Below, piece by piece: positions 9,574-22,987 of a stretch of 31,566 nt of DNA; within the stretch, counting starts at the first letter, position 1, and the number at the start of each line of letters is the position of its first letter. Both the position numbers and the translations under genes were made by a program. The notes under the pieces are model-generated. The model had not been told where the DNA came from. It was given only the letters and a program-made list of their open reading frames with translations, and searched no databases. This stretch comes from a virus, in the IMG/VR virus record IMGVR_UViG_3300001472_000085, positions 1 through 31,566 of that record. One strand, given 5' to 3'.

Positions 9574-9580
9574 AGTCTTC
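9556..9580 (+). terminator. hairpin spanning the dam stop codon, possible terminator
   Basis: GAAGACTTT (9556-9564) and AAAGTCTTC (9572-9580) are a perfect 9-bp inverted repeat with a 7-base loop containing most of the stop region. A weak T-rich stretch (TTATTT) follows. The stem is poor in GC, so termination may be leaky; it could instead protect the 3' end of the mRNA. Confidence 0.5.
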
Positions 9581-9620
9581 TTATTTAAACTTGTCAAAGC
9601 CGCAGACATTAGTTTATAAA

Positions 9621-9635
9621 TTATTTTTAAAATAA
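9621..9635. repeat. 15-bp palindrome upstream of promoter (copy 1)
   Basis: TTATTTTTAAAATAA: 7-bp arms around a single central base, ending three bases before the -35 box of the 9639 promoter. The same palindrome with a different central base lies at 24643-24657, also three bases before a -35 box. Candidate operator or UP element. Confidence 0.6.
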
Positions 9636-9638
9636 GTG

Positions 9639-9667
9639 TTGACAAAACTATTCCTCTGTGTTATAAT
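9639..9667 (+). promoter_or_regulatory. sigma-70-type promoter for the DUF932 operon
   Basis: TTGACA at 9639-9644 and TATAAT at 9662-9667, spacer 17 bp. The -10 box continues as TATAATACTTGTATT, identical at the promoters at 23618 and 24661. Confidence 0.88.
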
Positions 9668-9705
9668 ACTTGTATTAAAACTGAGAAAACATATAGGATT
9701 ATATT

Positions 9706-10674
9706 ATGAGCATGAATGATGTACTACAAATAGAAACTTCTGCGACTGTGGGTAAGTGCCCTTGGGGTATTGGGACTCAAGTCTCTAATGACTTATCTCC
9801 ACAACAAATGATGGAGAAGTCTGGAACTAATTGGACCGTTGAAAAATGTCCTACCTTTGCAGCAAAGGAAGGCGTAGATCTTATACCTACTGGTAAGGAA
9901 GCTCTCGTTCGATCTTCTGACAATAAGGTCCTAACCCAAGTGGGTGGTAATTGGGAACCCTGTCAAAACGAAACTGCATTTGAATTTTTCAATGAGTACT
10001 GCTTAGAGGGTGGTATGGAAATGTCTACTGCTGGTTCTCTGAAAGGCGGTAAGATGGTTTATGCAATGGCTAGAATCAAAGAGTCCTTCGATATCCTTGG
10101 TGGTGACCAAGTTGACTCTTATCTTTTATTCTCCAATCCTCACGAGTACGGAAAATCAATTGATATTCGATTCACTCCAGTTCGTGTAACGTGTATGAAT
10201 AGTCTTGCGATGGCTCTAAAGGGTCGTGCTATAAATGGTGCGAAGATTAATCATCGACGTGCGTTTGATGCTGATCATGTCAAAGTGACTATGGGTATCG
10301 CACACCGAAGATTTGAGGAATATAAAGAAGTTGCGAAGTTCCTTGCGAGTAAAAGATTTACTCCGGAATCTTTGATCAAATACTACAACGAAGTTTTCCC
10401 TAGAACTTATCAAGGAAAAAATCAAGTTACTGTCAACGAATACAAAGACTTGACCACTAACGGTCAGAAGGCCTTTGATGTTCTTCAGACTCAGCCTGGC
10501 GCAGAGTTTGGTAGAGGTTCTTGGTGGCAAGCACTTAACAGTGTAACTTACTTGACTGATCATGAGATGGGTCGTAGTGCAGATACTCGAATGACTTCTG
10601 CTTGGTTTGGTTCTAATCAAAACCGTAAACAAGTCGCACTATCTCAAGCAATTGATTTCGCGGAGGCAGCATAA
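9706..10674 (+). CDS. DUF932 phage/plasmid-type protein
   Basis: A 322-residue protein matching the DUF932 family by recall (phage/plasmid-like proteins). Visible features are the GKCPWGIGTQV start region, LVRSSDNKVLTQVGGNW near residue 67 (the typical strand following a 'how it was before' loop), RFTPVRVTCMNSL (155-167) with its conserved Arg-Val-x-Cys-x-Asn, and a C-terminal helical half ending SAWFGSNQNRKQVALSQAIDFA. The biochemical role is not established in my knowledge; roles in recombination or plasmid maintenance have been suggested. It is first gene of a long co-directed operon, with its own strong promoter, and its stop overlaps the next ATG (TAATG). Confidence 0.85.
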   Translation: MSMNDVLQIETSATVGKCPWGIGTQVSNDLSPQQMMEKSGTNWTVEKCPTFAAKEGVDLIPTGKEALVRSSDNKVLTQVGGNWEPCQNETAFEFFNEYCLEGGMEMSTAGSLKGGKMVYAMARIKESFDILGGDQVDSYLLFSNPHEYGKSIDIRFTPVRVTCMNSLAMALKGRAINGAKINHRRAFDADHVKVTMGIAHRRFEEYKEVAKFLASKRFTPESLIKYYNEVFPRTYQGKNQVTVNEYKDLTTNGQKAFDVLQTQPGAEFGRGSWWQALNSVTYLTDHEMGRSADTRMTSAWFGSNQNRKQVALSQAIDFAEAA

Positions 10675-11036
10675 TGAAATTTTTAGATTTTGTAGTAAAT
10701 TCTTGGAGGTCTATTATGGACCTCCGATTCAACCCTTTGAGATATATTCCTGATCCTGTACTTCAGTCTTATCTTATGTTAGCTTTATTCACTATGTGGA
10801 GTGGTTTTTTTGGGTTGATTGCTATCTACTATTTTGGGTGGCTTGGTTATAGTATTCCTGTTAGTATAGGAGTTCATCTTGCAGTACTTATTCCTACAGT
10901 TATTACTAATGCAGTATTTTATGATGCGGAAAGGACTAACGCTCCGTGGTTAACCAAGTGGAAAAATAAGAAAACCTTACTCAGTTATTTAAAGGGAAAG
11001 AATATTGTTAAATGGAATTTGGAGAAAGAAGGATAA
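10674..11036 (+). CDS. multi-pass membrane protein, two candidate starts
   Basis: 120 residues from the ATG at 10674, or 106 from an in-frame ATG at 10716. Both starts have a strong Shine-Dalgarno (GGAGG in the end of the upstream gene, and GGAGG at 10705-10709). Hydrophobic stretches at about residues 34-58 and 60-84 predict two or three membrane spans, followed by a basic C-terminal tail (KWKNKKTLLSYLKGKN). The family is not recognised. The second start codon sits in the loop of a perfect hairpin whose stem holds the second Shine-Dalgarno. Confidence 0.75.
   Translation: MKFLDFVVNSWRSIMDLRFNPLRYIPDPVLQSYLMLALFTMWSGFFGLIAIYYFGWLGYSIPVSIGVHLAVLIPTVITNAVFYDAERTNAPWLTKWKNKKTLLSYLKGKNIVKWNLEKEG
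10705..10725 (+). promoter_or_regulatory. hairpin sequestering a Shine-Dalgarno, start codon in the loop
   Basis: GGAGGTC (10705-10711) pairs perfectly with GACCTCC (10719-10725). The 7-base loop TATTATG ends with the ATG at 10716-10718. Opening by ribosomes translating from 10674, or by a protein, would expose the site. Confidence 0.6.
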
Positions 11037-11066
11037 TAAAAATATATATATTATATAGGATAAATT

Positions 11067-11378
11067 ATGAAGTATGATAGTGGTAAACCAGATTTGAGTT
11101 TGATACCGCCCGAAGCCTTGGTGGAAATAGCGCATGTAATGACATTCGGTGCAGAGAAGTACGCTAGAGATGATTGGAGACATGATGGTGATAACACCGA
11201 GTGGTCCCGAACCTACGCGTCTATCCAACGACACCTAACATCTTTTTGGTCGGGTGAGGATTTAGATCCTGAGTCCAGTCGCAATCACCTTGCTCATGCC
11301 GCAACTCAACTTCTAATACTTATGACACATATAAATGATGGTCATACAGAATGTGATGATAGGTATAAACAGAGATGA
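11067..11378 (+). CDS. dATP/dGTP diphosphohydrolase-like protein (DUF5664 family)
   Basis: A 103-residue protein matching the phage family recalled as DUF5664 / dATP-dGTP diphosphohydrolase N-terminal: KYDSGKPDLSLIPPEAL (2-18), MTFGAEKYARDDWR (26-39), then RHLTSFWSGEDLDPESSRNHLAHAATQL, giving the conserved RH and GE-x-D-x-ES and H-x-x-H-A pattern. It is all helical like MazG-type pyrophosphohydrolases. The likely role is nucleotide-pool control during replication; activity is an inference. An AGGA element precedes the ATG. It overlaps the next gene by ATGA. Confidence 0.75.
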   Translation: MKYDSGKPDLSLIPPEALVEIAHVMTFGAEKYARDDWRHDGDNTEWSRTYASIQRHLTSFWSGEDLDPESSRNHLAHAATQLLILMTHINDGHTECDDRYKQR

Positions 11379-11719
11379 AAATCAAAAGAATGCTTTGGAA
11401 AATATTTTCTAGCACAGGAATAATTTGGTTGTGGATAGATTTTTTAAATAATAAAAGAGAGTATAGTGGAAAAAATTTAATTTTTTATTCTACTATATCT
11501 TGGGTGTCTTTATTTATTGTCTTATTTGCAACTACTCACTCTCCTATCTATGGAATTGTTTCTGGGTTGCTTTTGGTTTTTTGGGTTTTAGGTAATACTC
11601 TTTATAGAATATCTGAGTCTCTGGGAGAGTATTTTGTAACTATATTTTTCTTTAGTGTATTTGTTGGTGTGTGGATTCTTTTTACAAAGAATGCGCACAT
11701 ATTTGTAAACTTACAATAA
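11375..11719 (+). CDS. hypothetical integral membrane protein
   Basis: 114 residues with three hydrophobic segments, at about 37-55, 57-75 and 86-104, and a basic N-terminus (MKIKRMLWK). The family is not recognised. The start overlaps the upstream stop (ATGA) and the next small gene begins one base after its stop, so it sits inside an operon. Confidence 0.7.
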   Translation: MKIKRMLWKIFSSTGIIWLWIDFLNNKREYSGKNLIFYSTISWVSLFIVLFATTHSPIYGIVSGLLLVFWVLGNTLYRISESLGEYFVTIFFFSVFVGVWILFTKNAHIFVNLQ

Positions 11720-11720
11720 A

Positions 11721-11891
11721 ATGGAATATGATTCTAGATTAAAATCTATCAATAGAGTTGAAGTTATTGATAGTTTAGGTAGGTCTTACACTAACCTAAA
11801 AGTTAAAAACGTTGCGGTTGTTTTTCAGGATGAAGAACAAACATTAAAATTATTTATAGATGAAAGGAAAGATTCGAATGAAGAAAGGTGA
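11721..11891 (+). CDS. small hypothetical protein (56 aa)
   Basis: ATG one base after the upstream stop, ending at TGA 11889-11891. It has alternating strands (VEVIDSLGRSYTNLKVKNVAVVF) and a charged C-terminus. The small beta-rich layout recalls the next protein. Its 3' end overlaps the next gene by 14 bases. It is probably real because it fills the gap exactly in a tightly packed operon. Confidence 0.55.
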   Translation: MEYDSRLKSINRVEVIDSLGRSYTNLKVKNVAVVFQDEEQTLKLFIDERKDSNEER

Positions 11892-12150
11892 TGTGGTATC
11901 GGTAGTAAATATGGCTGGGGAGTATGTGGGAAGAATTAAAGATGAGTCTTCCAATAAACTCATATTAGAAAATCCTAGGATGGTTGTTAATGGTGATCAG
12001 GGTATGGGGTTTGCTATGGGAATATGTGTAACTGGACAAGAGAGTCCGACAGAAGTATCTTTCTATACAGCTGGAATAGTTTTTGTTACTCCAGTTAACG
12101 CGGATATTGAAAAAGCATATATTGCCGCAACAAGTGGAATAATTATCTGA
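11878..12150 (+). CDS. conserved marine-phage protein, Sm/SH3-like small beta protein
   Basis: About 90 residues. I chose the ATG at 11878 (MKKGDVVSVV) over 11860 because an AAAGGAAAG element lies at the right distance. Residues 1-35 (GDVVSVVNMAGEYVGRIKDES) and LILENPRMVV read as a small beta barrel of the Sm/LSm type, with an internal-Met and Gly-rich turn (GMGFAMG). The C-terminus ATSGIII is typical of a family I recall from T4-like cyanophages and pelagiphages, without known function. Confidence 0.65.
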   Translation: MKKGDVVSVVNMAGEYVGRIKDESSNKLILENPRMVVNGDQGMGFAMGICVTGQESPTEVSFYTAGIVFVTPVNADIEKAYIAATSGIII

Positions 12151-12827
12151 TGGCAGAAATAACTATACGCAACAAAGAACTTCTTTCTACACTAGATGGT
12201 TTTGTGGAAGATATGTTCAGTAATTCTACGTACAACGATCCGAAGTGTTTCACTTTTCGAGAAGAATCTGATATGGACAAAGGAGAGTATTATTGTTCAG
12301 AGGAATATCTTCAGGATTGTCTTGGTAGATTCCCAACATTGGTTGGTCCTCCCGATAGATACTTTGCTATTCCTATTGCGAAACTAGTTAGAGAATATCC
12401 TGATCAGTGGACGGATTATATGCAGAAGGTAAAGTATGACTTTGCCGCAGATTTGGGAGCTCATACCTCAGCACTATTATCCTATTATCCGCCAGGCGGT
12501 TTTGTGGGGTGGCATACTAACTATGATGCAAATGCGTATCAAGTTCTATTCACTTGGTCTAAAGATGGTAATGGTTTTTTTAGGTACCGTGACAAAGACG
12601 GAAGCATTGTGACGGAACAGGATGTGCCGGGCTGGCAAGCACGTCATTATTATTTTGGTGCGGAACATGAAGTCGAAGATCATTGTTGGCACTCTGCTTA
12701 TGCTGGTGGTGAACGTCTTACTCTAGCATATAAGTTTGTTAATGATGGCGGTAAACAAAATACAGTAAAAGACGAACAGGCTAGATACCTGAGAGATTTG
12801 TTGATAGAAGATATTGAAACCGAATGA
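12150..12827 (+). CDS. 2-oxoglutarate/Fe(II) oxygenase-like protein
   Basis: A 225-residue protein with a double-stranded beta-helix layout: WHTNYDA (121-127) provides the first iron ligand His122, GFFRYRDKDG follows, then CWHSA with His181 and ERLTLAYKF with Arg189, which would bind the 2-oxoglutarate carboxylate. The second position of the HxD motif is Asn124, with Asp126 two residues later, so metal binding may be non-canonical, as I recall for phage members of this group. The substrate is unknown. A different dioxygenase family member follows directly (4-base overlap). Confidence 0.75.
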   Translation: MAEITIRNKELLSTLDGFVEDMFSNSTYNDPKCFTFREESDMDKGEYYCSEEYLQDCLGRFPTLVGPPDRYFAIPIAKLVREYPDQWTDYMQKVKYDFAADLGAHTSALLSYYPPGGFVGWHTNYDANAYQVLFTWSKDGNGFFRYRDKDGSIVTEQDVPGWQARHYYFGAEHEVEDHCWHSAYAGGERLTLAYKFVNDGGKQNTVKDEQARYLRDLLIEDIETE

Positions 12828-13534
12828 ATTATGATATAGACAAGTTTGAAGAACTGGGTTATGTTATAGTTACAGACTTTATGTCTAGAGAAGAACACTT
12901 TAATATAAATCAGGAATGTCATATTCAAACAGCATTAGCAACCAACCTTAAAGATAATAGTGATTGTTGGGTAATGAACTCACCTAATAATCCATGTAAG
13001 TTAGACGGTGCCTTTAAGTCTAACAATACTTTTAGAGGTGTAGCATCAAACACCACACTAAAATCTATTGCCAAAAAACTATTAGGAAAGAAAGATATTG
13101 ATACCTACATATCTAAATTTTTCCCTATGGTCCCGAAGGAAGGCTTCTCTGTAGATTGGCACCAAGATAATTATTACATTGGTGCAGACTCCTCTAAATT
13201 AATAAGTTGTGATTTTTTTGTTAATGGTGCGACTAAAGAAAACGGATGTCTCAGAATAATTCCTGAGTCTCATAGAAATATACATGATCATGAGAAAGAG
13301 TCTCATGGTTTTTTTAGATGGATGAATGTAAACGAAACTCACCCCTCTATAATCGATATAGAAATGGAACAACCCTTTGCGGTATTTTTTGATGTCAATT
13401 TAGTTCATGGTTGTTATCGTAATACCAGCGAGGCTTCGTATAGATATAGTATTGCTTGGGAATATATTGATAGGAAGTATATTCCAAAAACTCATAATGG
13501 ACATCAATCACAAGATAGGTTAAGAGTACAATGA
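12824..13534 (+). CDS. phytanoyl-CoA dioxygenase (PhyH)-like oxygenase
   Basis: A 236-residue Fe(II)/2-oxoglutarate enzyme of the PhyH group: FEELGYVIVTDF at the start (typical N-terminal helix-strand), HQD with His113/Asp115, GCLRIIPESHR (141-151), VNLVHGCYRN with His195, and Arg207 in SYRYSIAWEY. The full HxD...H...R set is present, so it should be active. Phage members hydroxylate unknown small molecules or proteins; the substrate cannot be read here. It overlaps both neighbours by four bases. Confidence 0.85.
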   Translation: MNYDIDKFEELGYVIVTDFMSREEHFNINQECHIQTALATNLKDNSDCWVMNSPNNPCKLDGAFKSNNTFRGVASNTTLKSIAKKLLGKKDIDTYISKFFPMVPKEGFSVDWHQDNYYIGADSSKLISCDFFVNGATKENGCLRIIPESHRNIHDHEKESHGFFRWMNVNETHPSIIDIEMEQPFAVFFDVNLVHGCYRNTSEASYRYSIAWEYIDRKYIPKTHNGHQSQDRLRVQ

Positions 13535-13737
13535 AAACACCAATGACGCAATTTAGAATAGCGCCTGAATTAAAGGAAAGGTTCAGAAAGGTTTGTGAAA
13601 AGAAGGGGATATCTATGAGTGATGTTGTCAGAGAGATGATAGAAGATTATGTTAATCTCAATACAGTGGGATTAGATCAGGATACTAGTGTGGTTATTAA
13701 TGATGATGTCGATGATGATTGGAGAAGAGTGTTATGA
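13531..13737 (+). CDS. ribbon-helix-helix (Arc/CopG-type) DNA-binding protein
   Basis: A 68-residue protein. Residues 5-12 (MTQFRIAP) form the DNA-contacting strand, ELKERFRKVCEKKG is helix 1, and SMSDVVREMIEDYVNL is helix 2, the standard RHH fold. The acidic tail after residue 50 is unusual. RHH dimers bind short inverted repeats; several lie 250-590 bases downstream at the start of the curli unit, making this a candidate regulator, though that is inference. ATGA overlap with the gene upstream. Confidence 0.85.
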   Translation: MKTPMTQFRIAPELKERFRKVCEKKGISMSDVVREMIEDYVNLNTVGLDQDTSVVINDDVDDDWRRVL

Positions 13738-13961
13738 GTTTAACTATGTTGGACGCACACAAGATATTAGATGATATGGTAGACCCTAATGTTGAATCTG
13801 TTATGGATTCTTATAGGTCTAGAGCTAAAGTAGGATTTGATAAATATGGAACAGATACCACCAGAACAGATATAGATTTGATGGGTTGGTTAACCCACCT
13901 ACAGGAAGAACTGATGGACGCTACCATCTACATTGAAAGATTGAAAAAAGAAATAGTATAA
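13734..13961 (+). CDS. small MazG-like conserved phage protein
   Basis: 75 residues from the ATG at 13734, which follows GGAGAAG at good spacing and overlaps the upstream stop (ATGA). The conserved core is RSRAKVGFDKYGTDTTR (about 25-41), DLMGWLTHLQEELMDATIYIERL (about 45-67). The KYG...D...WL-x-H-x-x-EE-x-x-D-x-x-x-Y pattern occurs in many phage proteins, often annotated as nucleotide pyrophosphohydrolase-like, with EELMD equal to the first half of the MazG metal site. Activity is not certain. It is the last gene before the late-promoter region. Confidence 0.65.
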   Translation: MSLTMLDAHKILDDMVDPNVESVMDSYRSRAKVGFDKYGTDTTRTDIDLMGWLTHLQEELMDATIYIERLKKEIV

Positions 13962-13977
13962 ATTTTACACCTCTCAG

Positions 13978-13985
13978 TATAAATA
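13978..13985 (+). promoter_or_regulatory. T4-type late promoter box 1
   Basis: Exact TATAAATA, the T4 late-promoter consensus, 17 bases after the stop of the previous gene. A 12-base inverted-repeat arm begins directly after it. Confidence 0.65.
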
Positions 13986-14022
13986 GGTTTATATCCCTTG
14001 ATGCTACCTTGGGATCTAAACC
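13986..14022 (+). other. hairpin in the leader before the curli unit
   Basis: GGTTTA-T-ATCCC (13986-13997) pairs with GGGAT-C-TAAACC (14011-14022): 11 base pairs with one T/C mismatch and a 13-base loop. A smaller CCAC/GTGG pair follows (14021-14036). No T tract, so probably not a terminator. Could be a 5' structure or an operator. Confidence 0.5.
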
Positions 14023-14078
14023 ACCTGAGTAAGTGGAAAACTGCTCAAAAAATAGTTCATTTTAGAAATTGTTTTCGT

Positions 14079-14096
14079 TATAAATAGTAGTATAAT
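14079..14096 (+). promoter_or_regulatory. composite late promoter for the holin-like/curli unit
   Basis: TATAAATA at 14079-14086, four bases, then TATAAT at 14091-14096. The same composite with the same 4-base spacing is at 26323-26340. No good -35 exists for the TATAAT (TTGTTT at 14069 with 16 bp is the best), so late transcription is the main prediction. Confidence 0.7.
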
Positions 14097-14121
14097 TTAC
14101 TTGATATATACGATACTACTA
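14085..14121. repeat. 9-bp perfect inverted repeat over the late promoter
   Basis: TAGTAGTAT (14085-14093) and ATACTACTA (14113-14121) with 19 bases between. The left arm overlaps the late-promoter box and the right arm ends two bases before the ATG at 14124. Since transcription should start inside it, a DNA operator is more likely than an RNA hairpin. Confidence 0.55.
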
Positions 14122-14123
14122 GA

Positions 14124-14402
14124 ATGAATTTTCTTACGATGGTAACTGATGTAGGTTTTCCTATTGCCTCCGCTCTCGCTGGGGGTTTCTTCGTATTTCT
14201 AACTTTAAGATTTATTCTCGATGGTGTCCTTGAAGATATCAAGACTCAACGTGCGTTTGCAAAATCTTTAGACAATCGCGTAAAAACTATGAACAATGAA
14301 CTTGTTCGTGTAGATGTTCTTATGTGTCAAGCATTTGGAGTTACTCCTGATGTAGATAGAATAGCACGTGCGGATGGACAAAAAGATGCGAGAAAGGATT
14401 AA
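14124..14402 (+). CDS. holin-like small membrane protein with coiled coil (paralog 1)
   Basis: A 92-residue protein: VGFPIASALAGGFFVFLTL (about 10-28) is a Gly/Ala-rich membrane helix, then a helical region DNRVKTMNNELVRVDVLM of coiled-coil type, then a charged tail. One membrane span plus a cytoplasmic coiled coil is the design of BhlA/UviB-type holins, but no experimental assignment is possible from sequence. The next gene is a diverged copy (GFPI start of the helix, DxDRVxxxDNDLIRM in place of DNRVxxMNNELVRV). First gene after the composite late promoter, directly ahead of csgF and csgG. No clear Shine-Dalgarno. Overlaps its neighbour by one base. Confidence 0.6.
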   Translation: MNFLTMVTDVGFPIASALAGGFFVFLTLRFILDGVLEDIKTQRAFAKSLDNRVKTMNNELVRVDVLMCQAFGVTPDVDRIARADGQKDARKD

Positions 14403-14668
14403 TGGAAGAATTGAATGTTGCGGATGCCATAGGTAAATATGGATTTCCTATTATTGCCGCATTTGGTTTAGGTTATTTTATATACTATATTTGGAAGTGG
14501 GTTACGACAGAAGTAGATCCTGTAGTCTCTGAATCTCATATGACATTGATAGCCTTAATCGATAGAGTAAGAATGTTAGACAATGATTTGATTCGTATGA
14601 AAACTAAATTGGATATGATACTTCAGGAAAAAGAAAATGAAAAAAATATTAATCGGAATACTGATTAG
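14402..14668 (+). CDS. holin-like small membrane protein with coiled coil (paralog 2)
   Basis: An 88-residue protein with YGFPIIAAFGLGYFIYYIW (13-31) as its single membrane helix, followed by a helical coiled-coil segment (LIALIDRVRMLDNDLIRMKTKLDMIL) and a charged end. The layout and the GFPI and DNDLIRM elements align with the preceding gene, so the two arose by duplication. Two-component membrane pairs of this kind could be a holin/antiholin or the inner-membrane part of the curli export system. The csgF start lies inside its last 32 bases. Confidence 0.6.
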   Translation: MEELNVADAIGKYGFPIIAAFGLGYFIYYIWKWVTTEVDPVVSESHMTLIALIDRVRMLDNDLIRMKTKLDMILQEKENEKNINRNTD

Positions 14669-15110
14669 TTTATTACTATGTGCAACTTACTCCTACTCAG
14701 ATCAAATTACACATAGATTTAAATCTCCTTCGTTCAGTGGTATAGGGACATCTGCTCACTATCTCACAATCGAGAATCAGGAAAGATCTCGTAGAGAGGA
14801 GATTAAAGACGACATAGAATCCGCAATCGCGCAAGCGGAAAGAGATGCAAATAATACTACGCAAGCAAAGTTCTTGCGTAATTTAGAAAGTAGAATATAC
14901 GCACAGATTGCCAAACAACTAGTTGATAATATGTTTGGTAATACTGATTCTTCGGAGTCTGGTTTTTTTGAGATTGAAGGAAACTCCATAACCTATGAGA
15001 CAATATATGGTGGTGGAGCTGATGGGACTGATGTTATAAGAATCACCGTAGTCAGTGAAGATGGGACTGTTACTACATTGGATGTTCCTATTGGTGCTGG
15101 TGGATTTTAA
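14637..15110 (+). CDS. csgF: CsgF-like curli secretion/nucleation factor
   Basis: A 157-residue secreted protein. A signal peptide (MKKILIGILISLLLCATYSYS) is followed by FKSPSFSG, which matches the conserved FRNPNFGG at the mature N-terminus of Escherichia coli CsgF, the segment that inserts into the CsgG pore and makes a second constriction. A helical middle (SAIAQAERDANNTTQAKFLRN) and a beta-rich end (ITVVSEDGTVTTLDVP, compare LNVTDRKTGQTSTIQVSG) follow the CsgF layout. The protein ends in Gly-Gly-Phe. It overlaps csgG by one base (TAATG), so the two are co-translated, as partners in one pore complex. Confidence 0.85.
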   Translation: MKKILIGILISLLLCATYSYSDQITHRFKSPSFSGIGTSAHYLTIENQERSRREEIKDDIESAIAQAERDANNTTQAKFLRNLESRIYAQIAKQLVDNMFGNTDSSESGFFEIEGNSITYETIYGGGADGTDVIRITVVSEDGTVTTLDVPIGAGGF

Positions 15111-15952
15111 TGAGACTGATTTTATTATCTCTGATGATCCTGTCGGGTTGTGCTGGAATACCAAAACCAAAATTAATAGATTGTGAAGATCGTATCGGTC
15201 TTTTGAACGAGTATGTTTTTGAGTGTAGGGAAAGTGCTGAAGTTGTAACACTACCAGCTTCAGAGAAACTCGCAAATCTTCCAGCTGCAAAGGTTCAACC
15301 TATTGTTGCAGTTTATAGTTTTAAAGATTTGACTGGACAAAGAAAAAGTCGAGACAACATTGCAGACTTTTCTACGGCAGTAACTCAAGGCGCAGAAGCC
15401 TTTGTAATAGATGCATTAAAAACTGCGGGCAAAGGTTCGTGGTTCAGAGTTGTTGACCGAGTTGGTCTGGACAACCTAGTTAGAGAAAGACAGATTATAA
15501 GATCTGCGAGAGAAGAGTTTGAGAAAAAAAGTAAAGACAATAAACTCCAACCTCTTTTGTTTGCAGGAATTATTGTCGATGGAGGAATCATAGGTTATGA
15601 TACCAACATCGAAAGTGGTGGTAGAGGAGCTAGGTACCTAGGAATAGGTAAAAGTTCTCAATATAGGAGGGATTCGATTGTGGTAAGCCTAAGGGCGACA
15701 TCGACTCTCACTGGTGAAGTATTACTTAATGTACAGACAAAGAAGTCTATATTGTCTGCTGGTGGTGGTTATGATATCTTTAGGTTTGTTGATATGGATA
15801 CCAAACTTATAGAATTCGAAGACGGAAACGGTTTCAACGAAAGCGTCACATATGCAACACGTGCTGCTGTGGAAGAAGCCGTATTAGAACTAATTTACCA
15901 AGGACACGAAAGGGGTTATTGGGTAATAGGAGAAACAAATGAAGATGAATAA
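15110..15952 (+). CDS. csgG: CsgG-like outer-membrane curli secretion pore lipoprotein
   Basis: A 280-residue lipoprotein (E. coli CsgG: 277). The lipobox LSGC places the lipidated Cys at residue 14. The family core is clear: TGQ...FSTAV, IIRSAREE, GGIIGYDTNIESGGRGARY, LGIG, TGEVLLNVQTKKSILS, FRFVD. The pore forms a nonameric beta barrel in the outer membrane for unfolded curlin. In the constriction loop Phe56 (mature E. coli numbering) is kept, but Asn55 is Asp and Tyr51 is replaced within a charged, one-residue longer segment. About 35 extra residues with two Cys lie between lipobox and core. The start of the first curlin gene lies inside its end. Confidence 0.93.
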   Translation: MRLILLSLMILSGCAGIPKPKLIDCEDRIGLLNEYVFECRESAEVVTLPASEKLANLPAAKVQPIVAVYSFKDLTGQRKSRDNIADFSTAVTQGAEAFVIDALKTAGKGSWFRVVDRVGLDNLVRERQIIRSAREEFEKKSKDNKLQPLLFAGIIVDGGIIGYDTNIESGGRGARYLGIGKSSQYRRDSIVVSLRATSTLTGEVLLNVQTKKSILSAGGGYDIFRFVDMDTKLIEFEDGNGFNESVTYATRAAVEEAVLELIYQGHERGYWVIGETNEDE

Positions 15953-16793
15953 AAAGTCACTATACGTGGTTCTTGGTCTTGCTATGACTAATGCCTATGC
16001 TGGTGATGCTAACGACAATGAGATTTTTATTGCACAGAGTGGTGATAATGTTGAGTTGACTATACAACAAATCGGTGCTGGTAACAAATATGGTGGAGAT
16101 GATTTCACTGGTACATCTATTGATATGACCATGACAATTTCTAACTCGTACTTAGATTTAAAACAAGACGGTGACTACAACAAAATGTTTGGTACTATCG
16201 TAACCACTGGTTCGACTATCAACAACTTCACCGTAGGTAATTACAACATATGGAATCAGAAGATAGGTGTTGCTAATGATGCCGACACTTTGACTATAGA
16301 TTCAAATATAACTGGTAACACGAACACTGTTATTCTGAGAGCTGGTAATGCGGATGATGTTTATAACATATCCACTCCTCTCTGGAATCAGTCTAACGCA
16401 GAACAATTTTGGACAGTTAGTGGAAGTACTTGGTCTAGGACTAATAGTGGTCAAACTGCATATTGGGGATCTTGGGACCCTACTGAAGGTTCATCCGATA
16501 CTTTAGATATGGATCTAGATGTTACTGGTTCGGACAACACATTGAATGTTTTCTTTAATTCGGATAACGCCACTTGGAATTGGGATGTTACTGGATCTAA
16601 TAACTGGATTCAAACAAGTATGGAAGACGGTTCGGATAATAGACAAACTGTTGGTGTGACTGGCGATTATAACTTTGTTTTTGTAGGTCAGAATACTGGT
16701 TCCACTACTGGAGTTACCAACAATGCAATACTCGACGCTACGTTCGCTACCACTCATTCAGATATTAATATTATTCAGTCTGACGCTAACTAA
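15939..16793 (+). CDS. curlin-repeat secreted protein 1 (CsgA/CsgB-like)
   Basis: A 284-residue protein with signal peptide (cleavage after AYA, about residue 21) and then curlin-type strands: IFIAQSGDNVELTIQQIGAGN fits the Q-x-G-x-x-N-x5-Q repeat. The rest is Asn/Thr/Asp/Gly-rich with degenerate repeats every 20-25 residues and unusually many Trp, no Lys/Arg clusters. It is a predicted amyloid or beta-solenoid substrate of the adjacent CsgG/CsgF pore. It shares its N-terminal block with the protein at 17879, so the two are paralogs. Codon start: ATG at 15939 or 15945; both give the same signal peptide core. The last 71 bases are overprinted by the start of the FecR gene. Confidence 0.85.
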   Translation: MKMNKKSLYVVLGLAMTNAYAGDANDNEIFIAQSGDNVELTIQQIGAGNKYGGDDFTGTSIDMTMTISNSYLDLKQDGDYNKMFGTIVTTGSTINNFTVGNYNIWNQKIGVANDADTLTIDSNITGNTNTVILRAGNADDVYNISTPLWNQSNAEQFWTVSGSTWSRTNSGQTAYWGSWDPTEGSSDTLDMDLDVTGSDNTLNVFFNSDNATWNWDVTGSNNWIQTSMEDGSDNRQTVGVTGDYNFVFVGQNTGSTTGVTNNAILDATFATTHSDINIIQSDAN

Positions 16794-17877
16794 TTTATCT
16801 TTGGGGTCTACTGACCCCATTGGTGATATAGTAGAAAGAAAAGGAGTTGCCTCACTAGTTCGGAAGAGTGGTGAGGAACTTTCCGTGTCCGAAAGAAATG
16901 TTCCTGAGATTAAGTTGTTGGATACTGCGGTAACAGGCAATGGAAGAATGCTCATCCAGTTTAAAGATGAGGAAGAATTGTCTCTAATAGAACATACAAA
17001 AATATATATCGACGAAGCATATTATGATCCTGATCCATCTAAGTCTAAGATGGCGATTCGCATGGCTCAAGGTACCGCAAGATTTACTTCTGGTCGCGGT
17101 AAAAGAATAAAAAAATCAAACATCAATCTCACCACTCCTACTGCACAAATCGCAGTTCTGGGGACAGACTTTACCACCACTATCGACGAGATAGGTAGGT
17201 CCTTGATAATATTATTGCCTGACGAAAAGACTGGATTGTCTTCGGGTAAGATAATGATAAGTAACAATGGTGGGACAACTCTGCTTGAGGAACCCTATCA
17301 AGCTTCTGTGGTATCTTCCTATGATACCGCACCAACAAAACCAGTAGTTCTTTCTGGAATAAACACCACAATGATCAGTAATATATTCATTGTAGCCGAA
17401 CCAAAAGAAATAAAAAAAGTGAAGAGTGAGGAAGGTTTATCTTCTGAAAACTCTTCGGACAATATTCTTGACGTGGATTTTCTAGAGTTTAATGAGTTGG
17501 AAAATGACTACTTGGATTACGATGAATTAGAATTTACCGAACTCGACATAGATTATCTCGATGTTGACTTTCTTCAGGATGTCTTGGATGTTATCGCTGA
17601 CTTAGATAAGATGACAGGATTAGATAAAGATAAACTAAATACTGGAATAGACTTGTCGGGAACTACACTGGGGTTCAATGTTGACACTCAGTATAATACC
17701 TTATTAGATACTGGTTTGGGTACAGTAAAATTTTACAGAAATGTTGATGGAGTAATAAGCTTGACATTCATAATGTCACAAAACGCCACTATAAGAACTA
17801 CTTCTAACCAGAAAGAATCTGAGATAGTTTTGGGAGACGGACAGAGTATTATTATAAACATCACTCAGGTTAATTAG
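16723..17877 (+). CDS. FecR-domain secreted/periplasmic protein with acidic repeats
   Basis: A 384-residue protein. A signal peptide (hydrophobic LPLIQILILFSLTLTNLSLG, 9-28) is encoded entirely within the overlap with the preceding curlin gene. A FecR domain follows (about 30-170): DIVERKGVASLVR, LLDTAVTGNGRMLIQFKDEEELSL, a long loop, then NLTTPTAQIAVLGTDFTT, the usual 'TP-x-a-x-x-x-GT' ending. Residues about 247-295 are a strongly acidic ladder with Asp/Glu/Leu/Tyr/Phe in 11-13-residue repeats. The last 90 residues are again beta-rich. FecR-domain proteins often neighbour CHASE2-cyclase genes, and one lies two genes downstream. The role may be surface sensing or binding of curlin; not proven. 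Confidence 0.75.
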   Translation: MQYSTLRSLPLIQILILFSLTLTNLSLGSTDPIGDIVERKGVASLVRKSGEELSVSERNVPEIKLLDTAVTGNGRMLIQFKDEEELSLIEHTKIYIDEAYYDPDPSKSKMAIRMAQGTARFTSGRGKRIKKSNINLTTPTAQIAVLGTDFTTTIDEIGRSLIILLPDEKTGLSSGKIMISNNGGTTLLEEPYQASVVSSYDTAPTKPVVLSGINTTMISNIFIVAEPKEIKKVKSEEGLSSENSSDNILDVDFLEFNELENDYLDYDELEFTELDIDYLDVDFLQDVLDVIADLDKMTGLDKDKLNTGIDLSGTTLGFNVDTQYNTLLDTGLGTVKFYRNVDGVISLTFIMSQNATIRTTSNQKESEIVLGDGQSIIINITQVN

Positions 17878-17878
17878 A

Positions 17879-18628
17879 ATGAAAAATATATTTTTTATAC
17901 TCATGACGTTTAGTTTAGATTTGTTTGCTGATAACGAGATCTATATTAATCAGTCTGGCGATAATCTTAATTTGGAAGTAAGACAGTTGGGTGATAACAA
18001 CAAAGTTGACACTGTAATGAACGGTTATCAATTGACTATGGATGTTCTTCAAGAGGGAAACCGAAACGAATTACTAAAAAATGGAACTGGTATATCTGGT
18101 GACGGAAATACCATAACCACAGAACAATGGAATAACACAACAAGTTCTGATGTCAATAAGATCTATATTGATGTTAATGGTAACAATAATGAAATAGATG
18201 TTGGTCAGGGGTGTAAGTTTGCTGGAGGTATGTCGGACACCACATGTGACAGGGATACTCATGAGGATGCTGGACACACTCTCTATGTTGATATTCAAGG
18301 AGGTAACAACAGAGTAAAGGGTGGACAGAAGTCTGGGACCGCAAATCCAAATCACAATGCATCTATAGACGTGGATTCTGACGGTAATGATGTATTCTAT
18401 ACTCAAGCTGGAAGTGGTGAAAAAAATCTAACTCTAGATATCAATAATGATTCTAATGATGTTACCGTCAATCAGTTATATGGTACACATACTGCTAATA
18501 TAACTTTGAACGGTTCAGACTCAACAACTCTAAATCTCACTCAACAGGGTAGCGGTGTTATGAACTATACACTAACTCAGAACTGTGTGACCTTGGGAGG
18601 TTGCACAATTACGGTAACACAACAATGA
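17879..18628 (+). CDS. curlin-repeat secreted protein 2 (CsgA/CsgB-like)
   Basis: A 249-residue protein with a short signal peptide (cleavage after LFA, residue 17), then NEIYINQSGDNLNLEVRQLG, nearly the same block as in the protein at 15939. Further repeats include LQEGNRNEL, NGNNNEIDVGQG, TQAGSGEKNLTLDI and LTQQGSGVMNYTLTQ, ending CTITVTQQ, giving about 8-9 degenerate strand-turn units of roughly 22 residues. Four Cys are scattered, unlike CsgA. This is the second predicted substrate of the CsgG pore; a major/minor subunit division like CsgA/CsgB is possible. Overlaps the next small gene by ATGA. Confidence 0.85.
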   Translation: MKNIFFILMTFSLDLFADNEIYINQSGDNLNLEVRQLGDNNKVDTVMNGYQLTMDVLQEGNRNELLKNGTGISGDGNTITTEQWNNTTSSDVNKIYIDVNGNNNEIDVGQGCKFAGGMSDTTCDRDTHEDAGHTLYVDIQGGNNRVKGGQKSGTANPNHNASIDVDSDGNDVFYTQAGSGEKNLTLDINNDSNDVTVNQLYGTHTANITLNGSDSTTLNLTQQGSGVMNYTLTQNCVTLGGCTITVTQQ

Positions 18629-18792
18629 AAAAATATTGGCAGATATGGAAACATTCCTTGGGAGCATTCGATGAAGAGGATGGTTACAACCCAGATTCCG
18701 AGAATGCTATAGCGATAATAAGAACTGTCATAGTAGGAATAAATATTCTCTGTGGCATATTGATAATGGCCAATATCCTAAAGGACTGGTAG
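18625..18792 (+). CDS. small single-pass membrane protein (55 aa)
   Basis: ATG at 18625 overlaps the upstream stop (ATGA). An N-terminal amphipathic region (MKKYWQIWKHSLGAFDEED) is followed by a membrane helix (about 29-50, AIIRTVIVGINILCGILIMANIL). It is located between the second curlin gene and the cyclase in the same operon. The function is unknown; possible partner of the cyclase or the export system. Confidence 0.65.
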   Translation: MKKYWQIWKHSLGAFDEEDGYNPDSENAIAIIRTVIVGINILCGILIMANILKDW

Positions 18793-18796
18793 TACA

Positions 18797-20617
18797 ATGT
18801 ATAATTGGAAAGTTGTTATCATAACAATACTTCTATTATGTACAGTAAGAGTAATGGACCCCAAGTTAGTCGAACAATTCCGACTAAATTATTTTGATTC
18901 TCTTCAGTCATATCAAGAACCTATACAATCTGACAACATAGTCATCGTCGATATCGACGAGAAGGCTTTAGATAAGTACGGTCAGTTTCCATTTAGTCGA
19001 GACATATATGCGGACTGGTTAATGTCGTCTCCAGAGAATAGTGCTTATGTATTTAATATGGGATTTACCGAAAAGGATAGGTTCGGTGGAGATAAAAAAT
19101 TTATAGATTCTATGTCTCATAGGGATGTCATCTTATCCTCATTAACAACAAATCAGTTAGAGAACAACGAGGCGCCTCCTAGGGGGTTCGGCAAACTCGG
19201 TAATGGAAATCCTTCTGACTGGTTGTATTCCTACAACGGAATAAGAAATCCTATAATGGGAAAGGACTCCGCCGGAGTCGGAACTGTTACTGTCGCCCCT
19301 TCTGTAGATGGTATTGTTAGGGAGTCTCCTTTAGCAGTACTATCTAATGGTTATCTATATCCCTCCGTCGCTTTAGAGATACTTCGTGTCTGGGAGTTTC
19401 AACCCAACCTCGCAATAAAGATTAAGGAGGCTGGAGTAGAGTGGGTAAGAATGGGTTCACTTCCTCCTATGTACACCACACCAAACTCAAATGTACAAAT
19501 AGCCTACTGGAATACCTACGAAAGAGTATCCTTTGGAGACCCTCTACCAGACGAAAAAATAATCATACTGGGTTTGAGCGCCGGAGGATTAGTCAATCCT
19601 GTAGCAACTCCTACGGGTGCTATGTTGCCCCATGATATCCAAGCACACCTAATATCTACTGTGGTGAACGGTATTCAAATACAAAGGCCTTGGTATGCAG
19701 ATCAGTTAGAAATACTAGTCATCATTATGTCTTCATTTCTTATCCTTCTCATAGTCTACAAAACACCGACATGGTTTTCTGCTCTCGGTTCATTAGGAAT
19801 AATGTCTAGTTGGGTTGCTGTGAGTAATTACTATTGGATGGAATCTCTTATACTACTGGATGTATTGTATCCGGTGATGTCATCCTTTATAGTATTTGCG
19901 CATTCTTCTTTTAATAGATTCTATGTTACTTTCCAACTCAAAGAGCAGATAAAGAAACAGTTTGGAACTTATCTATCTCCAGACATGGTCTATATGCTTC
20001 AGAAGAATCCTTCACTCCTAAAACTTGGAGGAGAGAAGAAAGAGATGTCCTTTCTTTTTATGGACATATGTGGATTTACTCCTATCAGTGAACACTATAA
20101 AAATAAAGACGACCCTGAAGGATTAGTAGAGTTGGTAAATGAATTCTTAGACGCTATGACAAAAATTATATTATCTAATGGAGGAACTATTGACAAGTAT
20201 ATGGGGGACTGCATAATGGCATTTTGGAATGCACCATTGCCCTGTGAAAATCACGCTGAAATGGCAGTTAAATCAGCTATTGAAATAGAAGAAAAAACAA
20301 ATGAACTTAAAGGGATCTATAAAGCCCGCGGCCTTCCTGACATTAATGTTGGTACTGGGATTAACACCGGCGATTGTATTGTTGGCAACATGGGTAGTGA
20401 ATCCAGATTTGACTATTCGGTTATTGGAGATGCGGTCAACTTGGCAGCTAGACTAGAGGCTACGGCAGCAAGAGGAGACTACTTAGAACATAAGACTATT
20501 ATATCTAGTTATACACAAGAACAACTAAGTGATAGTTTTAGATGTCAAGAAATAGGAAACATAAAGGTTAAGGGCAAAGAAGAACTAATAACCATTTATA
20601 AACCCAAACTTATATAA
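18797..20617 (+). CDS. CHASE2-domain class III adenylate/guanylate cyclase
   Basis: A 606-residue membrane signalling protein. An N-terminal membrane helix (5-19), a periplasmic CHASE2 sensor (about 25-300, with NIVIVDIDEKALDKYGQFPFSRDIYADWL near residue 49), three membrane helices (about 301-380), then a cyclase domain. Metal-binding Asp423 (MDICGFT) and Asp471 (YMGDCIMAFW) are present, as are Asp545, Asn548 and Arg552 in GDAVNLAARLE (transition-state residues), so it looks active; whether it makes cAMP or cGMP is not settled by eye. CHASE2 domains sense unknown extracellular signals; FecR and curlin proteins are secreted from the same operon and are candidate ligands. The late-promoter box of the next unit overlaps its stop codon. 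Confidence 0.93.
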   Translation: MYNWKVVIITILLLCTVRVMDPKLVEQFRLNYFDSLQSYQEPIQSDNIVIVDIDEKALDKYGQFPFSRDIYADWLMSSPENSAYVFNMGFTEKDRFGGDKKFIDSMSHRDVILSSLTTNQLENNEAPPRGFGKLGNGNPSDWLYSYNGIRNPIMGKDSAGVGTVTVAPSVDGIVRESPLAVLSNGYLYPSVALEILRVWEFQPNLAIKIKEAGVEWVRMGSLPPMYTTPNSNVQIAYWNTYERVSFGDPLPDEKIIILGLSAGGLVNPVATPTGAMLPHDIQAHLISTVVNGIQIQRPWYADQLEILVIIMSSFLILLIVYKTPTWFSALGSLGIMSSWVAVSNYYWMESLILLDVLYPVMSSFIVFAHSSFNRFYVTFQLKEQIKKQFGTYLSPDMVYMLQKNPSLLKLGGEKKEMSFLFMDICGFTPISEHYKNKDDPEGLVELVNEFLDAMTKIILSNGGTIDKYMGDCIMAFWNAPLPCENHAEMAVKSAIEIEEKTNELKGIYKARGLPDINVGTGINTGDCIVGNMGSESRFDYSVIGDAVNLAARLEATAARGDYLEHKTIISSYTQEQLSDSFRCQEIGNIKVKGKEELITIYKPKLI

Positions 20618-20620
20618 ATA
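20613..20620 (+). promoter_or_regulatory. T4-type late promoter box overlapping cyclase stop
   Basis: Exact TATAAATA overlapping the stop codon (20615-20617), twelve bases upstream of a sigma-70 promoter. The downstream genes can therefore be read early and late. Confidence 0.5.
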
Positions 20621-20951: not shown

Positions 20952-21650
20952 ATGAAAAAGTTTAAACAATTCTGTGAGGAACTGGAACATCTCGAAGAAG
21001 GTGTAAATGATCCCGCTATATTTAAAGCGGTGTTCCTTGCTGGAGGGCCGGGTTCAGGTAAATCTTTTATTGTTGGAAAGACTGCTCTAACTTCATTTGG
21101 TTTTCGTGTAATAAATTCGGATGAATCTTTTGAACATCAAATGAAGAAAGCTGGTTTAGACATGAGTCCTGAGAAAATTTTTTCTCCTCAAGGACAGAAG
21201 ATAAGAGCAAAATCAAAATCTTTCATAATGCATACCAAAAGAAGATCTTATATGAGGGGAGCTTTAGGATTAGTTATTGATGGTACTGGAAAAAATATTA
21301 AAAGTATTGCTTCACAAAAAAAATTCTTAGAAAAATACGGTTATGAAACCGCAATAGTCATAGTAAATACAAATCTTGATACTGCTGTAAGTAGAGATGC
21401 GAAAAGAAAAAGAACCATAGGTAAAAAATCATTAGAACCTATGTGGCAGGCTGTACAAGATAATATCGGGGAATTTCAACAGATGTTCGGAAAGTCGAAC
21501 ACCTATATAGTCGATAACAGTGATGGAAAAGATTTTGAAAAAGAAACTATGTCAACATACAAAGGCATTGGTCAATGGTCAAAGAAACCTCCATCATCTA
21601 GATTTGCTAAGAAATGGATAGAACAAGAGAAGAAAAATAAGACTAGATAA
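20952..21650 (+). CDS. zeta-toxin-like P-loop kinase with capsid-targeting-type N-terminus
   Basis: A 232-residue protein with Walker A GGPGSGKS (about 32-39), an acidic NSDESFE (catalytic-type Asp), VIDGTG (about 110), and basic SRDAKRKR (about 145), the layout of zeta-toxin/polynucleotide-kinase-like enzymes that phosphorylate nucleotides or sugars. The first residues, MKKFKQFCEE, align position by position with the capsid-targeting peptide of T4 internal proteins (aromatic at 4 and 7, Glu at 10), and LEEG (14-17) is also a plausible prohead-protease site. If packaged, it would enter the host with the DNA. The substrate is unknown. Confidence 0.75.
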   Translation: MKKFKQFCEELEHLEEGVNDPAIFKAVFLAGGPGSGKSFIVGKTALTSFGFRVINSDESFEHQMKKAGLDMSPEKIFSPQGQKIRAKSKSFIMHTKRRSYMRGALGLVIDGTGKNIKSIASQKKFLEKYGYETAIVIVNTNLDTAVSRDAKRKRTIGKKSLEPMWQAVQDNIGEFQQMFGKSNTYIVDNSDGKDFEKETMSTYKGIGQWSKKPPSSRFAKKWIEQEKKNKTR

Positions 21651-21848: not shown

Positions 21849-22220
21849 ATGTGGGAAAATATTGAACGTATGTTTGGTGACACTTTGTGGATCTACACCG
21901 CTATAGGTGGAAGTATTCTAGGTGCATTGTTTATTGCTTACATGAGAGACACTAAGGTTGCTATGTGGGCATTTGGTAAGTGGGACACTCTAATAGATAG
22001 TTTAGTTGAGAAGTATGAATGGACTTGGTTAACTCAAGATCCCAATGCTTGGAAGAAGGTAAATCCCAATATTGCCAGAAAAATAGATCAATTAGAAGCT
22101 AGAATTATAGAATTAGAAGATGACTCGCACCCTCCTGTGGTTCCGGGCGGAACAACTGAATTGAAAGATCTTATCGCAAAGGTAGAATCTAGACTTAATG
22201 ATTTGGAGAAAGAACTATGA
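21849..22220 (+). CDS. membrane protein with coiled coil, lipase neighbour
   Basis: 123 residues: a membrane helix (about 15-31, IYTAIGGSILGALFIAY), a Trp-rich region (MWAFGKWDTL...WTWLTQD), then charged heptad-like segments (QLEARIIELEDD and LIAKVESRLNDLEKEL) split by a Pro/Gly hinge (HPPVVPGG). It starts two bases after the previous stop and overlaps the lipase start by ATGA, indicating co-translation with the lipase. Function unknown; holin-like architecture is possible but not assignable. Confidence 0.65.
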   Translation: MWENIERMFGDTLWIYTAIGGSILGALFIAYMRDTKVAMWAFGKWDTLIDSLVEKYEWTWLTQDPNAWKKVNPNIARKIDQLEARIIELEDDSHPPVVPGGTTELKDLIAKVESRLNDLEKEL

Positions 22221-22987
22221 GCATAGTATCAATTAGTGTTCGTGAGAGGAGTTCTTTGTTCGCAAAGCTTAGTGCTATCGCTTACCTACCTTTGAAGGAA
22301 GCTAAAAAAGAATCTAAGAAACTTGGTTTTACTCAAGTAGAATTTTATGATAAGGATGGTGCTCAGGCATATCGTTTTCAGAATAAAAAAGATTTGGTTA
22401 TTGCTTGTAGGGGAACGCAACCCACAGAGTTTAATGATATTAGGGCAGACCTTAAAGCAATACCTGTTATTTCCGAAACTATAAGTAGGGTTCACCGAGG
22501 ATTTAAAGGAGAGGTGGATGAACTCTGGCCTATGATAAAAGAAGATCTAGTACCTAAAGTTTTCGCAAAAAGAACCTTATGGGTAACTGGTCATAGTCTG
22601 GGTGCTGCAATGGCAACTATCATAGCCGCAAGATGTACTCTGGACGAGAATATGCCCAATGTTGAGGAACTTTATACATACGGTTCTCCTAGAGTTGGTT
22701 GGAGAAAATACTGTCAAAGTCTTCCAGTAAAACATTACCGATGGAGAAATAATAACGATATCGTTACTACAGTTCCTTTAGTATTAATGGGTTATACTCA
22801 TCATGGAGATTCTTGTTATATCAATGCCTATGGACAGGTTCGTGATCTAACTACTTGGCAAAGAGTCAAAGATAAATTAAGAGGAATGTGGATGGGTATC
22901 AAAGTCGGCCGCATAGATAATTTTAGTGATCATAACATTGGTGCTTATATTGAGCATCTGGATAATTGGATAGAAGAGGATAAATAA
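22217..22987 (+). CDS. class 3 (alpha/beta hydrolase) lipase
   Basis: A 256-residue lipase: DLVIACRGTQPTEFNDIRADLKAI (59-82) contains the oxyanion region, GHSLGAA holds the nucleophile Ser127, Asp181 in NNNDIVTTVP and His239 in FSDHNIGAYIEHL complete the triad. All three catalytic residues are in place, so the enzyme should be active on lipids or esters. No signal peptide is visible, so it would act in the cytoplasm or be released on lysis. A role in attacking host membranes during lysis is possible, given the membrane-protein neighbours. Confidence 0.92.
   Translation: MSIVSISVRERSSLFAKLSAIAYLPLKEAKKESKKLGFTQVEFYDKDGAQAYRFQNKKDLVIACRGTQPTEFNDIRADLKAIPVISETISRVHRGFKGEVDELWPMIKEDLVPKVFAKRTLWVTGHSLGAAMATIIAARCTLDENMPNVEELYTYGSPRVGWRKYCQSLPVKHYRWRNNNDIVTTVPLVLMGYTHHGDSCYINAYGQVRDLTTWQRVKDKLRGMWMGIKVGRIDNFSDHNIGAYIEHLDNWIEEDK

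Follow-up and report, generated by a model that had tools for sequence, protein, structure and literature searches.

A curli-type gene block with FecR and CHASE2-cyclase genes in a viral genome fragment and its relatives

A nine-gene block and its conservation

The 31,566-base IMG/VR virus record IMGVR_UViG_3300001472_000085 (hereafter the window, known here as a fragment) carries nine plus-strand genes, overlapping or nearly abutting between positions 14124 and 20617, which we regard as a candidate curli (type VIII) secretion module for the export of fibres. The block opens with two small paralogous proteins of PHROG 18771, each with a single transmembrane (TM) segment (14124–14402, whose helical tail looks coiled-coil-like by eye, and 14402–14668). 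These are followed by CsgF (14637–15110; PF10614, 3.7e-11), the outer-membrane pore lipoprotein CsgG (15110–15952; PF03783, 7.1e-48), a first curlin-type protein (15939–16793), a FecR-domain protein (16723–17877; Pfam FecR, 9.1e-11), a second curlin-type protein (17879–18628), a small protein of PHROG 1679 (18601–18792 if it begins with the TTG at 18601; an ATG further on could also serve as its start) and a CHASE2 protein with a class III adenylate/guanylate cyclase domain (18797–20617; CHASE2 1.7e-28, Guanylate_cyc 6.1e-21). All of these Pfam matches lie over the families' cut-offs and confirm the assignments of the first-pass annotation, which had been made from the sequence alone and whose gene set and coordinates are as it described; its word 'fused' for the export and signalling parts fails if taken literally, as the genes are separate. 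Function-unknown PHROG families exist for seven of the nine genes, both curlins being without one. The window also has PHROG matches to a phage DNA polymerase, a UvsX-like recombinase and a DnaB-like helicase, and we read its replication region as T4-like.

Scans of IMG/VR confirmed 551 CsgG-encoding stretches (in one scan), 336 cyclases and at least 529 FecR relatives, and the best 80 relatives were kept per scan, which biases the sample to near relatives. The 195 CsgG open reading frames (ORFs), which include those of the window and of the phages HTVC008M and Melnitz and count overlapping loci of one contig apart, formed 98 clusters at 95%; 39 of these were without enough flanking sequence, and the other 59, the window's own among them, were assessed. 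CsgF, CsgG, a curlin and FecR stood in that order in 59 of 59 clusters, with a cyclase within 7 kb in 58. Small TM genes numbered two in 49 clusters (in four of which the second sits between csgF and csgG), one in nine and none in one, a second curlin was recognised in 39, and a relative of the small PHROG 1679 protein was seen in four. The picture is similar by fetching gene: among contigs with flank, those fetched by CsgG (44 of 80) held a curlin in 44, FecR in 44 and the cyclase in 41, those fetched by the cyclase (33 of 80) held CsgG and FecR in all 33, and those fetched by FecR (34 of 80) held CsgG and the cyclase in all 34. Among the pairs listed, which come from three or four relative contigs, each of the eight main genes has a ratio of non-synonymous to synonymous substitution (dN/dS) between 0.02 and 0.09, dS being close to saturation in the second curlin, and these values point to purifying selection.

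The genes are thus co-located in related phages, and the unit described by the first-pass annotation, a phage curli export system with its own curlin cargo, FecR protein and receptor cyclase, is conserved as a block, widespread in viral contigs and strictly kept in those examined. The unit is biologically real, and the claim that it is new is wrong: Wittmers et al. (2022; PMC9599517), a paper that we cite, like the others below, from portions of its text, had already described it in pelagiphages, both podo- and myophages, with its curlins, FecR and adenylate cyclase.

The first-pass annotation had also placed the block under late promoters. T4-late-like TATAAATA boxes lie on the plus strand at 13978–13985 and, 45 nucleotides (nt) 5' of the first module gene, at 14079–14086; another, at 20613–20620, lies over the cyclase stop, 5' of the next gene, where only eight of 105 relatives' regions have such a box. 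Within the window alone the motif is not significant (seven matches against 4.0 expected, a count reached by eight of 100 shuffles). Across the relatives it is enriched: of 99 distinct regions that cover the 200 nt 5' of the first module gene, 33 hold TATAAATA, and mononucleotide shuffles give 2.9 on average and at most 8. An equal length 5' of four further genes holds it in 7/93 regions for CsgF, 0/94 for CsgG, 1/90 for FecR and 2/111 for the cyclase. We take TATAAATA to be a late promoter from its resemblance to T4, and the module would then be expressed late.

Export components, FecR protein and small membrane proteins

The phage CsgG profile retrieves the solved E. coli CsgG at 2.2e-73; the N-terminal cysteine is invariant (26 of 26 aligned), and a lipobox-like cysteine motif lies within the first 60 amino acids of 126 of 141 distinct CsgG ORFs. 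A CsgG 41.5% identical is also encoded by OR851715.1, a 1.5-kb record named Salmonella phage that is perhaps host DNA. Among the window proteins scanned (part of the window's ORFs), there was no Pfam match to the CsgE gate or to the CsgD regulator. A pore lacking CsgE might stay open, which would suit the suggestion made in PMC7029224 and PMC9599517 that CsgG admits larger nutrients to the periplasm. We think this improbable: it leaves CsgF, the curlins, FecR and the co-travelling cyclase unexplained. According to the portion of PMC7029224 at hand, CsgE is not essential to the curli core.

The candidate fibre subunits of the block are its two curlin-type proteins. Neither window copy matches Pfam Curlin_rpt, and their NCBIfam matches are both far below cut-off (CsgA at 2e-4 for the second, CsgB at 0.04 for the first). 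We identify them as curlins by their same-position homologues, by the match between the profiles of the two positions and by the model of the second. At E ≤ 0.01, Curlin_rpt matches 21 of the 42 representatives of the second position and 15 of the 36 of the first, and the two position profiles match each other with a probability of 99.7% (6e-27). The model of the second curlin is a beta-solenoid built from short strands, of which the first four begin at intervals of 11 residues (predicted local distance difference test, pLDDT, 84; predicted template modelling score, pTM, 0.84). A Foldseek search with this model gave no match at E ≤ 0.001, and VIA-align of the 300 top chains returned SufB/SufD-type and beta-helical proteins at up to Z 16.2, with no curli chain among the 50 matches listed, a result that speaks neither for nor against curli. 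A simple repeat expression matches twice in each window curlin, weakly above shuffles (48 and 49 of 2000 reached this). Some second curlins carry further domains (PA14 on five of 42, GLEYA on three of 42), which would be consistent with an adhesive role. One such second curlin with an N-terminal PA14 is AGE60352.1 of HTVC008M (L001 7658–8980), annotated as 'hypothetical protein'.

The FecR-domain protein was modelled with a mean pLDDT of 80 and a pTM of 0.53. A signal-like hydrophobic helix at residues 9–24 (with low pLDDT there) precedes a FecR fold at about 31–228; then come a linker of poor prediction quality and, at about 311–384, a C-terminal beta domain that ends in IxIxQ. The FecR fold aligns with the PupR cell-surface signalling domain 6ovk (Z 15.0, root-mean-square deviation 2.4, 134 residues aligned) and with 4m0n (Z 13.2). 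The model has no N-terminal cytoplasmic anti-sigma domain before a TM helix, and with the hydrophobic helix at 9–24 and the FecR fold starting at about 31 there is no room for one. The model thus speaks for a periplasmic FecR fold without an anti-sigma part, and the anti-sigma-like role that the first-pass annotation had entertained is not borne out; the published reading as an iron-type FecR regulator likewise deserves to be revisited.

The C-terminus of this protein has a feature of its own. The tail [IVLTF]x[IVLF]xQ, ending 0–4 residues from the stop, is found in every one of the 151 distinct phage FecR ORFs that reach 300 amino acids, and in all 37 clusters at 70%. The same tail occurs in five of 1492 background ORFs, in none of 130 CsgF, 145 CsgG and 207 small TM ORFs, and in one of 163 cyclases. 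A slightly wider pattern stands at the end of 70 of 72 second-position and 47 of 135 first-position curlins, and the FecR model has short strands at the tail. Curlin homology of the whole C-terminal domain was considered and set aside, as profile comparison with both curlins was not significant (probabilities of 1–10%). Structural matches of this part are propeller-like and other pieces at Z < 4, and the likeness between FecR and the curlins is therefore limited to the terminal strand.

The small proteins upstream of csgF span 82–135 amino acids (202 distinct ORFs), and a simple hydropathy rule gives one TM segment in 154, none in 38 and two in 10. The first-pass annotation had called them holin-like, a weak label: their match to PHROG 18771 (9.8e-31) compares with a single holin PHROG match, at E = 0.01, of one of the two, and the Pfam matches of 31 representatives include no holin family. 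Nor is a kinase family found among these matches at E ≤ 0.1, with no HisKA or HATPase_c. PMC9599517, in the portion consulted, places one or two histidine kinases before csgF; if its genes are these small proteins, as their number and place suggest, that published label would be without support here and should be revisited.

These proteins bear on a lysis role, which has been proposed in print for Melnitz (PMC9004378). CsgG and CsgF would then be repurposed as a gated pore that times lysis, with the curlins as plugs or minor cargo. Small membrane proteins do adjoin csgF in all 67 CsgG-fetched contigs with upstream flank, and the late-like boxes upstream of the module would suit such timing. 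CsgG, however, lies in the outer membrane and would not by itself depolarise the inner one, the curlins are under purifying selection and present in all 44 flanked contigs, and the single holin match is a weak one. We consider this device unlikely, and fibre export remains our preferred reading. The pore is also described as far too small for virion egress (PMC7029224).

Cellular relatives, the cyclase and the presumed host

Profile matches in the 80 bacterial-genome loci nearest to the phage CsgG comprise 78 CsgG ORFs, 65 CsgF, four FecR and four cyclases; in L242 and L243 CsgG was found by tblastn and not by the profile ORF search. FecR is borne by L241, L243, L244 and L246, and the cyclase by L241, L243, L244 and, weakly, L306. 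Apart from L244, the FecR-bearing loci look like phage contigs: in L241 and L243 the genes are arranged as in the phages, down to the small TM genes, and the contig of L246 measures 3 kb. L241, L242, L243, L245 and L246 sit in metagenome-assembled genomes (MAGs) labelled Sphingobacteriales, Flavobacteriales, Planctomycetaceae, Pirellulales and Pelagibacter, and have phage-type curli genes by gene order (L241–L243) or by the CsgG tree (L241, L245, L246); they are probably phage sequence binned into MAGs.

L244, on a 705-kb contig of the Hyphomonas sp. TMED17 record, is different. Its csgF, csgG, curlin, fecR and cyclase genes follow one another at 9366–15389, with CsgF and FecR over the Pfam cut-offs. 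Their neighbours are bacterial: on one side they are flanked by genes for an acetyl-CoA hydrolase/transferase, a TonB receptor plug, an alanine-racemase-like protein, a lactone oxidase and an FAA hydrolase, and on the other by genes for a protein without a match and a 2-oxoglutarate oxygenase. The G+C content is 0.505 in the locus against 0.53 around it, and its FecR is without the Q tail. On a cellular origin of the unit the two trees differ. When compared with 29 further cyclases from bacteria, its cyclase falls outside all 26 phage representatives as their sister (with support of 1.0, the phages grouping together at 0.96), while its CsgG lies inside the phage group (a 0.97 clade, with weak inner supports of 0.45 and 0.67). 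Among 105 genomes of its family only this single MAG has a FecR match at 1e-40, and the next best in 385 genomes of the class is 3.3e-36; L244 is a row of both query alignments, so that its own scores are high by construction. CHASE2 cyclases at E ≤ 1e-90 occur in 133 of those 385 genomes, and in listings of 150 matches each for the cyclase and for FecR, at least 25 of the cyclases, that of L244 included, have a FecR within 5 kb. FecR beside a CHASE2 cyclase is therefore an ordinary cellular pair. Almost all phage clusters examined join this pair to curli genes, and among cells we saw it so joined once.

In an alignment of 146 distinct full cyclase ORFs, 144 retain the complete set of six class III catalytic residues; those of the window, which also has the CHASE2 domain, are D423, K467, D471, S541, N548 and R552. 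We take these to be the two metal-binding Asp, the Lys, the Ser/Thr/Asp position, the Asn and the Arg, and presumably the pattern of Lys with Ser/Thr marks ATP as the substrate. This suggests that the enzyme uses ATP, with cyclic AMP (cAMP) as the predicted product; the nearest solved cyclases are adenylate cyclases.

The hosts of the relatives are SAR11 and OM43. As a presumed host family for the present phage we used the 147 genomes, possibly incomplete, in the family of a Pelagibacter-labelled MAG. Only three hold a class III cyclase (two over cut-off) and three hold CsgG; in G394 and G429, CsgG and the cyclase are on one contig about 3 kb apart and are probably the phage module itself. A cyclic-nucleotide-binding domain was found in nine of the 147 genomes and in none of eight phage records, some of them fragments. 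A cAMP signal would therefore be an orphan in this family, and the phage cyclase is without a known receptor. The rarity of these domains speaks against a simple cAMP effect, though other receptors exist.

Such scarcity would fit a cyclase that mainly floods or drains nucleotide pools in a receptor-less host, in take-over or as a block to other phages, the curli link being one of regulatory timing only. In its favour are the retained catalytic residues, the rare binding domains and the fact that both over-cut-off host-family cyclases sit on contigs with CsgG within 5 kb. Yet the co-location of the cyclase with FecR and curli genes is fixed, the CHASE2 domain is kept, the host family is only presumed from genomes that may be incomplete, and the receptor need not be of the kind sought; we give this explanation little credence. 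About as doubtful is an orphan sensory circuit, in a host without curli and usually without a cAMP receptor or class III cyclase, in which FecR would read fibre assembly or export through its curlin-like terminal strand and CHASE2 would relay this to the cyclase, a fibre checkpoint that times lysis or blocks superinfection.

Interpretation and comparison with known systems

We favour, with a probability of roughly 0.55, a type VIII (curli) secretion module, expressed late by a T4-like marine phage, that combines fibre export, FecR–CHASE2 signalling and surface remodelling. CsgG with CsgF would form an outer-membrane pore through which the two curlin-type beta-solenoid proteins would be exported, and on the infected cell they would probably assemble into fibres. 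The FecR-domain protein, periplasmic or travelling with the fibres, would probably act as a partner of the CHASE2 receptor or bring it its ligand; a change in fibre or envelope state would be passed through CHASE2 to the cytoplasmic cyclase, which would make cAMP, and the small TM pair may serve as an accessory in the membrane. What the phage probably gains is a remodelled cell surface, which either makes neighbouring hosts adhere and aggregate or shields against other phages. This reading draws on the family matches, synteny, dN/dS, catalytic residues, the curlin solenoid model, the FecR–CHASE2 neighbours and the PA14 and GLEYA domains.

Several observations weigh against it. Besides the failure of the window's curlins to match Curlin_rpt, the missing CsgE match and the dearth of cyclic-nucleotide-binding domains in the presumed host family and the phage records, three of the 44 CsgG-fetched flanked contigs have no cyclase within 6.5 kb. 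Two cyclases depart from the catalytic pattern (L103, Asp to Tyr; Melnitz, Ser to Asp and Asn to Ser). Of the 33 regions with a TATAAATA box, 23 have it starting only 10–19 nt 5' of the called start, a short distance for a promoter, although the called start is that of the longest ORF and the true one may lie further downstream. Finally, Melnitz showed no clumping under the culture conditions of PMC9004378, as given in the part of that paper at hand.

In those portions of the open-access literature that we covered, we met no experiment on the function of the module. If fibres are built, and if the hosts are SAR11 or OM43 as for HTVC008M and Melnitz, these phages would alter the surface and the clumping of bacteria that are very common in the ocean. 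Signalling by the cyclase in a host that lacks a known receptor would mean an unknown cyclic-nucleotide route, and we see the orphan cyclase as the foremost point of interest in the function of the module.

The genes next to the block have assignments of their own. Just 5' are a phytanoyl-CoA dioxygenase family protein (12824–13534; Pfam PhyH, 5.5e-22), which HTVC008M also has just before its module, and a ribbon-helix-helix/RelB-like small protein (13531–13737; Pfam, 2e-6). Just 3' is an AAA_33/zeta-toxin-like P-loop kinase (20952–21650; Pfam, 7e-8 and 1e-6). Further on, a small protein whose N terminus is hydrophobic (21849–22220) directly precedes a class 3 lipase (22217–22987; Pfam, 1.5e-18), and the two are possibly an envelope-attack or lysis pair.

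The module can be set beside both cellular and phage systems. Bacterial curli operons share CsgG, CsgF and curlin repeats with it, but unlike the phage module those nearest to the phage CsgG rarely have FecR (4/80) or the cyclase (4/80). The portion of PMC9599517 consulted gives FecR and the cyclase as absent from bacterial type VIII secretion (T8SS) operons, in contrast to the L244 MAG, which carries both. A biofilm operon of Burkholderia, in which FecR stands beside a CHASE2 kinase (PMC5192318), is alike in pairing a secreted FecR-domain protein with a CHASE2 receptor in a biofilm-linked setting; it differs in that its output is a histidine kinase rather than a cyclase, and curli genes are not named in the sections of that paper at hand. 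Among phages, csgF and csgG were reported from pelagimyophages in PMC7029224, which proposes 'sibling capture', and the pelagiphage T8SS module of PMC9599517 has the same order as the window, CsgF–CsgG–CsgA/B–FecR–(often a second CsgA/B)–adenylate cyclase. This gene order is also that of HTVC008M (KC465899; CsgG 52% and cyclase 44% identical), whose second curlin, unlike the window's, has PA14, and of the Methylophilales phage Melnitz (MZ577097; CsgG 47% and cyclase 34% identical), whose cyclase has lost the catalytic Asn and bears a C-terminal extension like that of L244.

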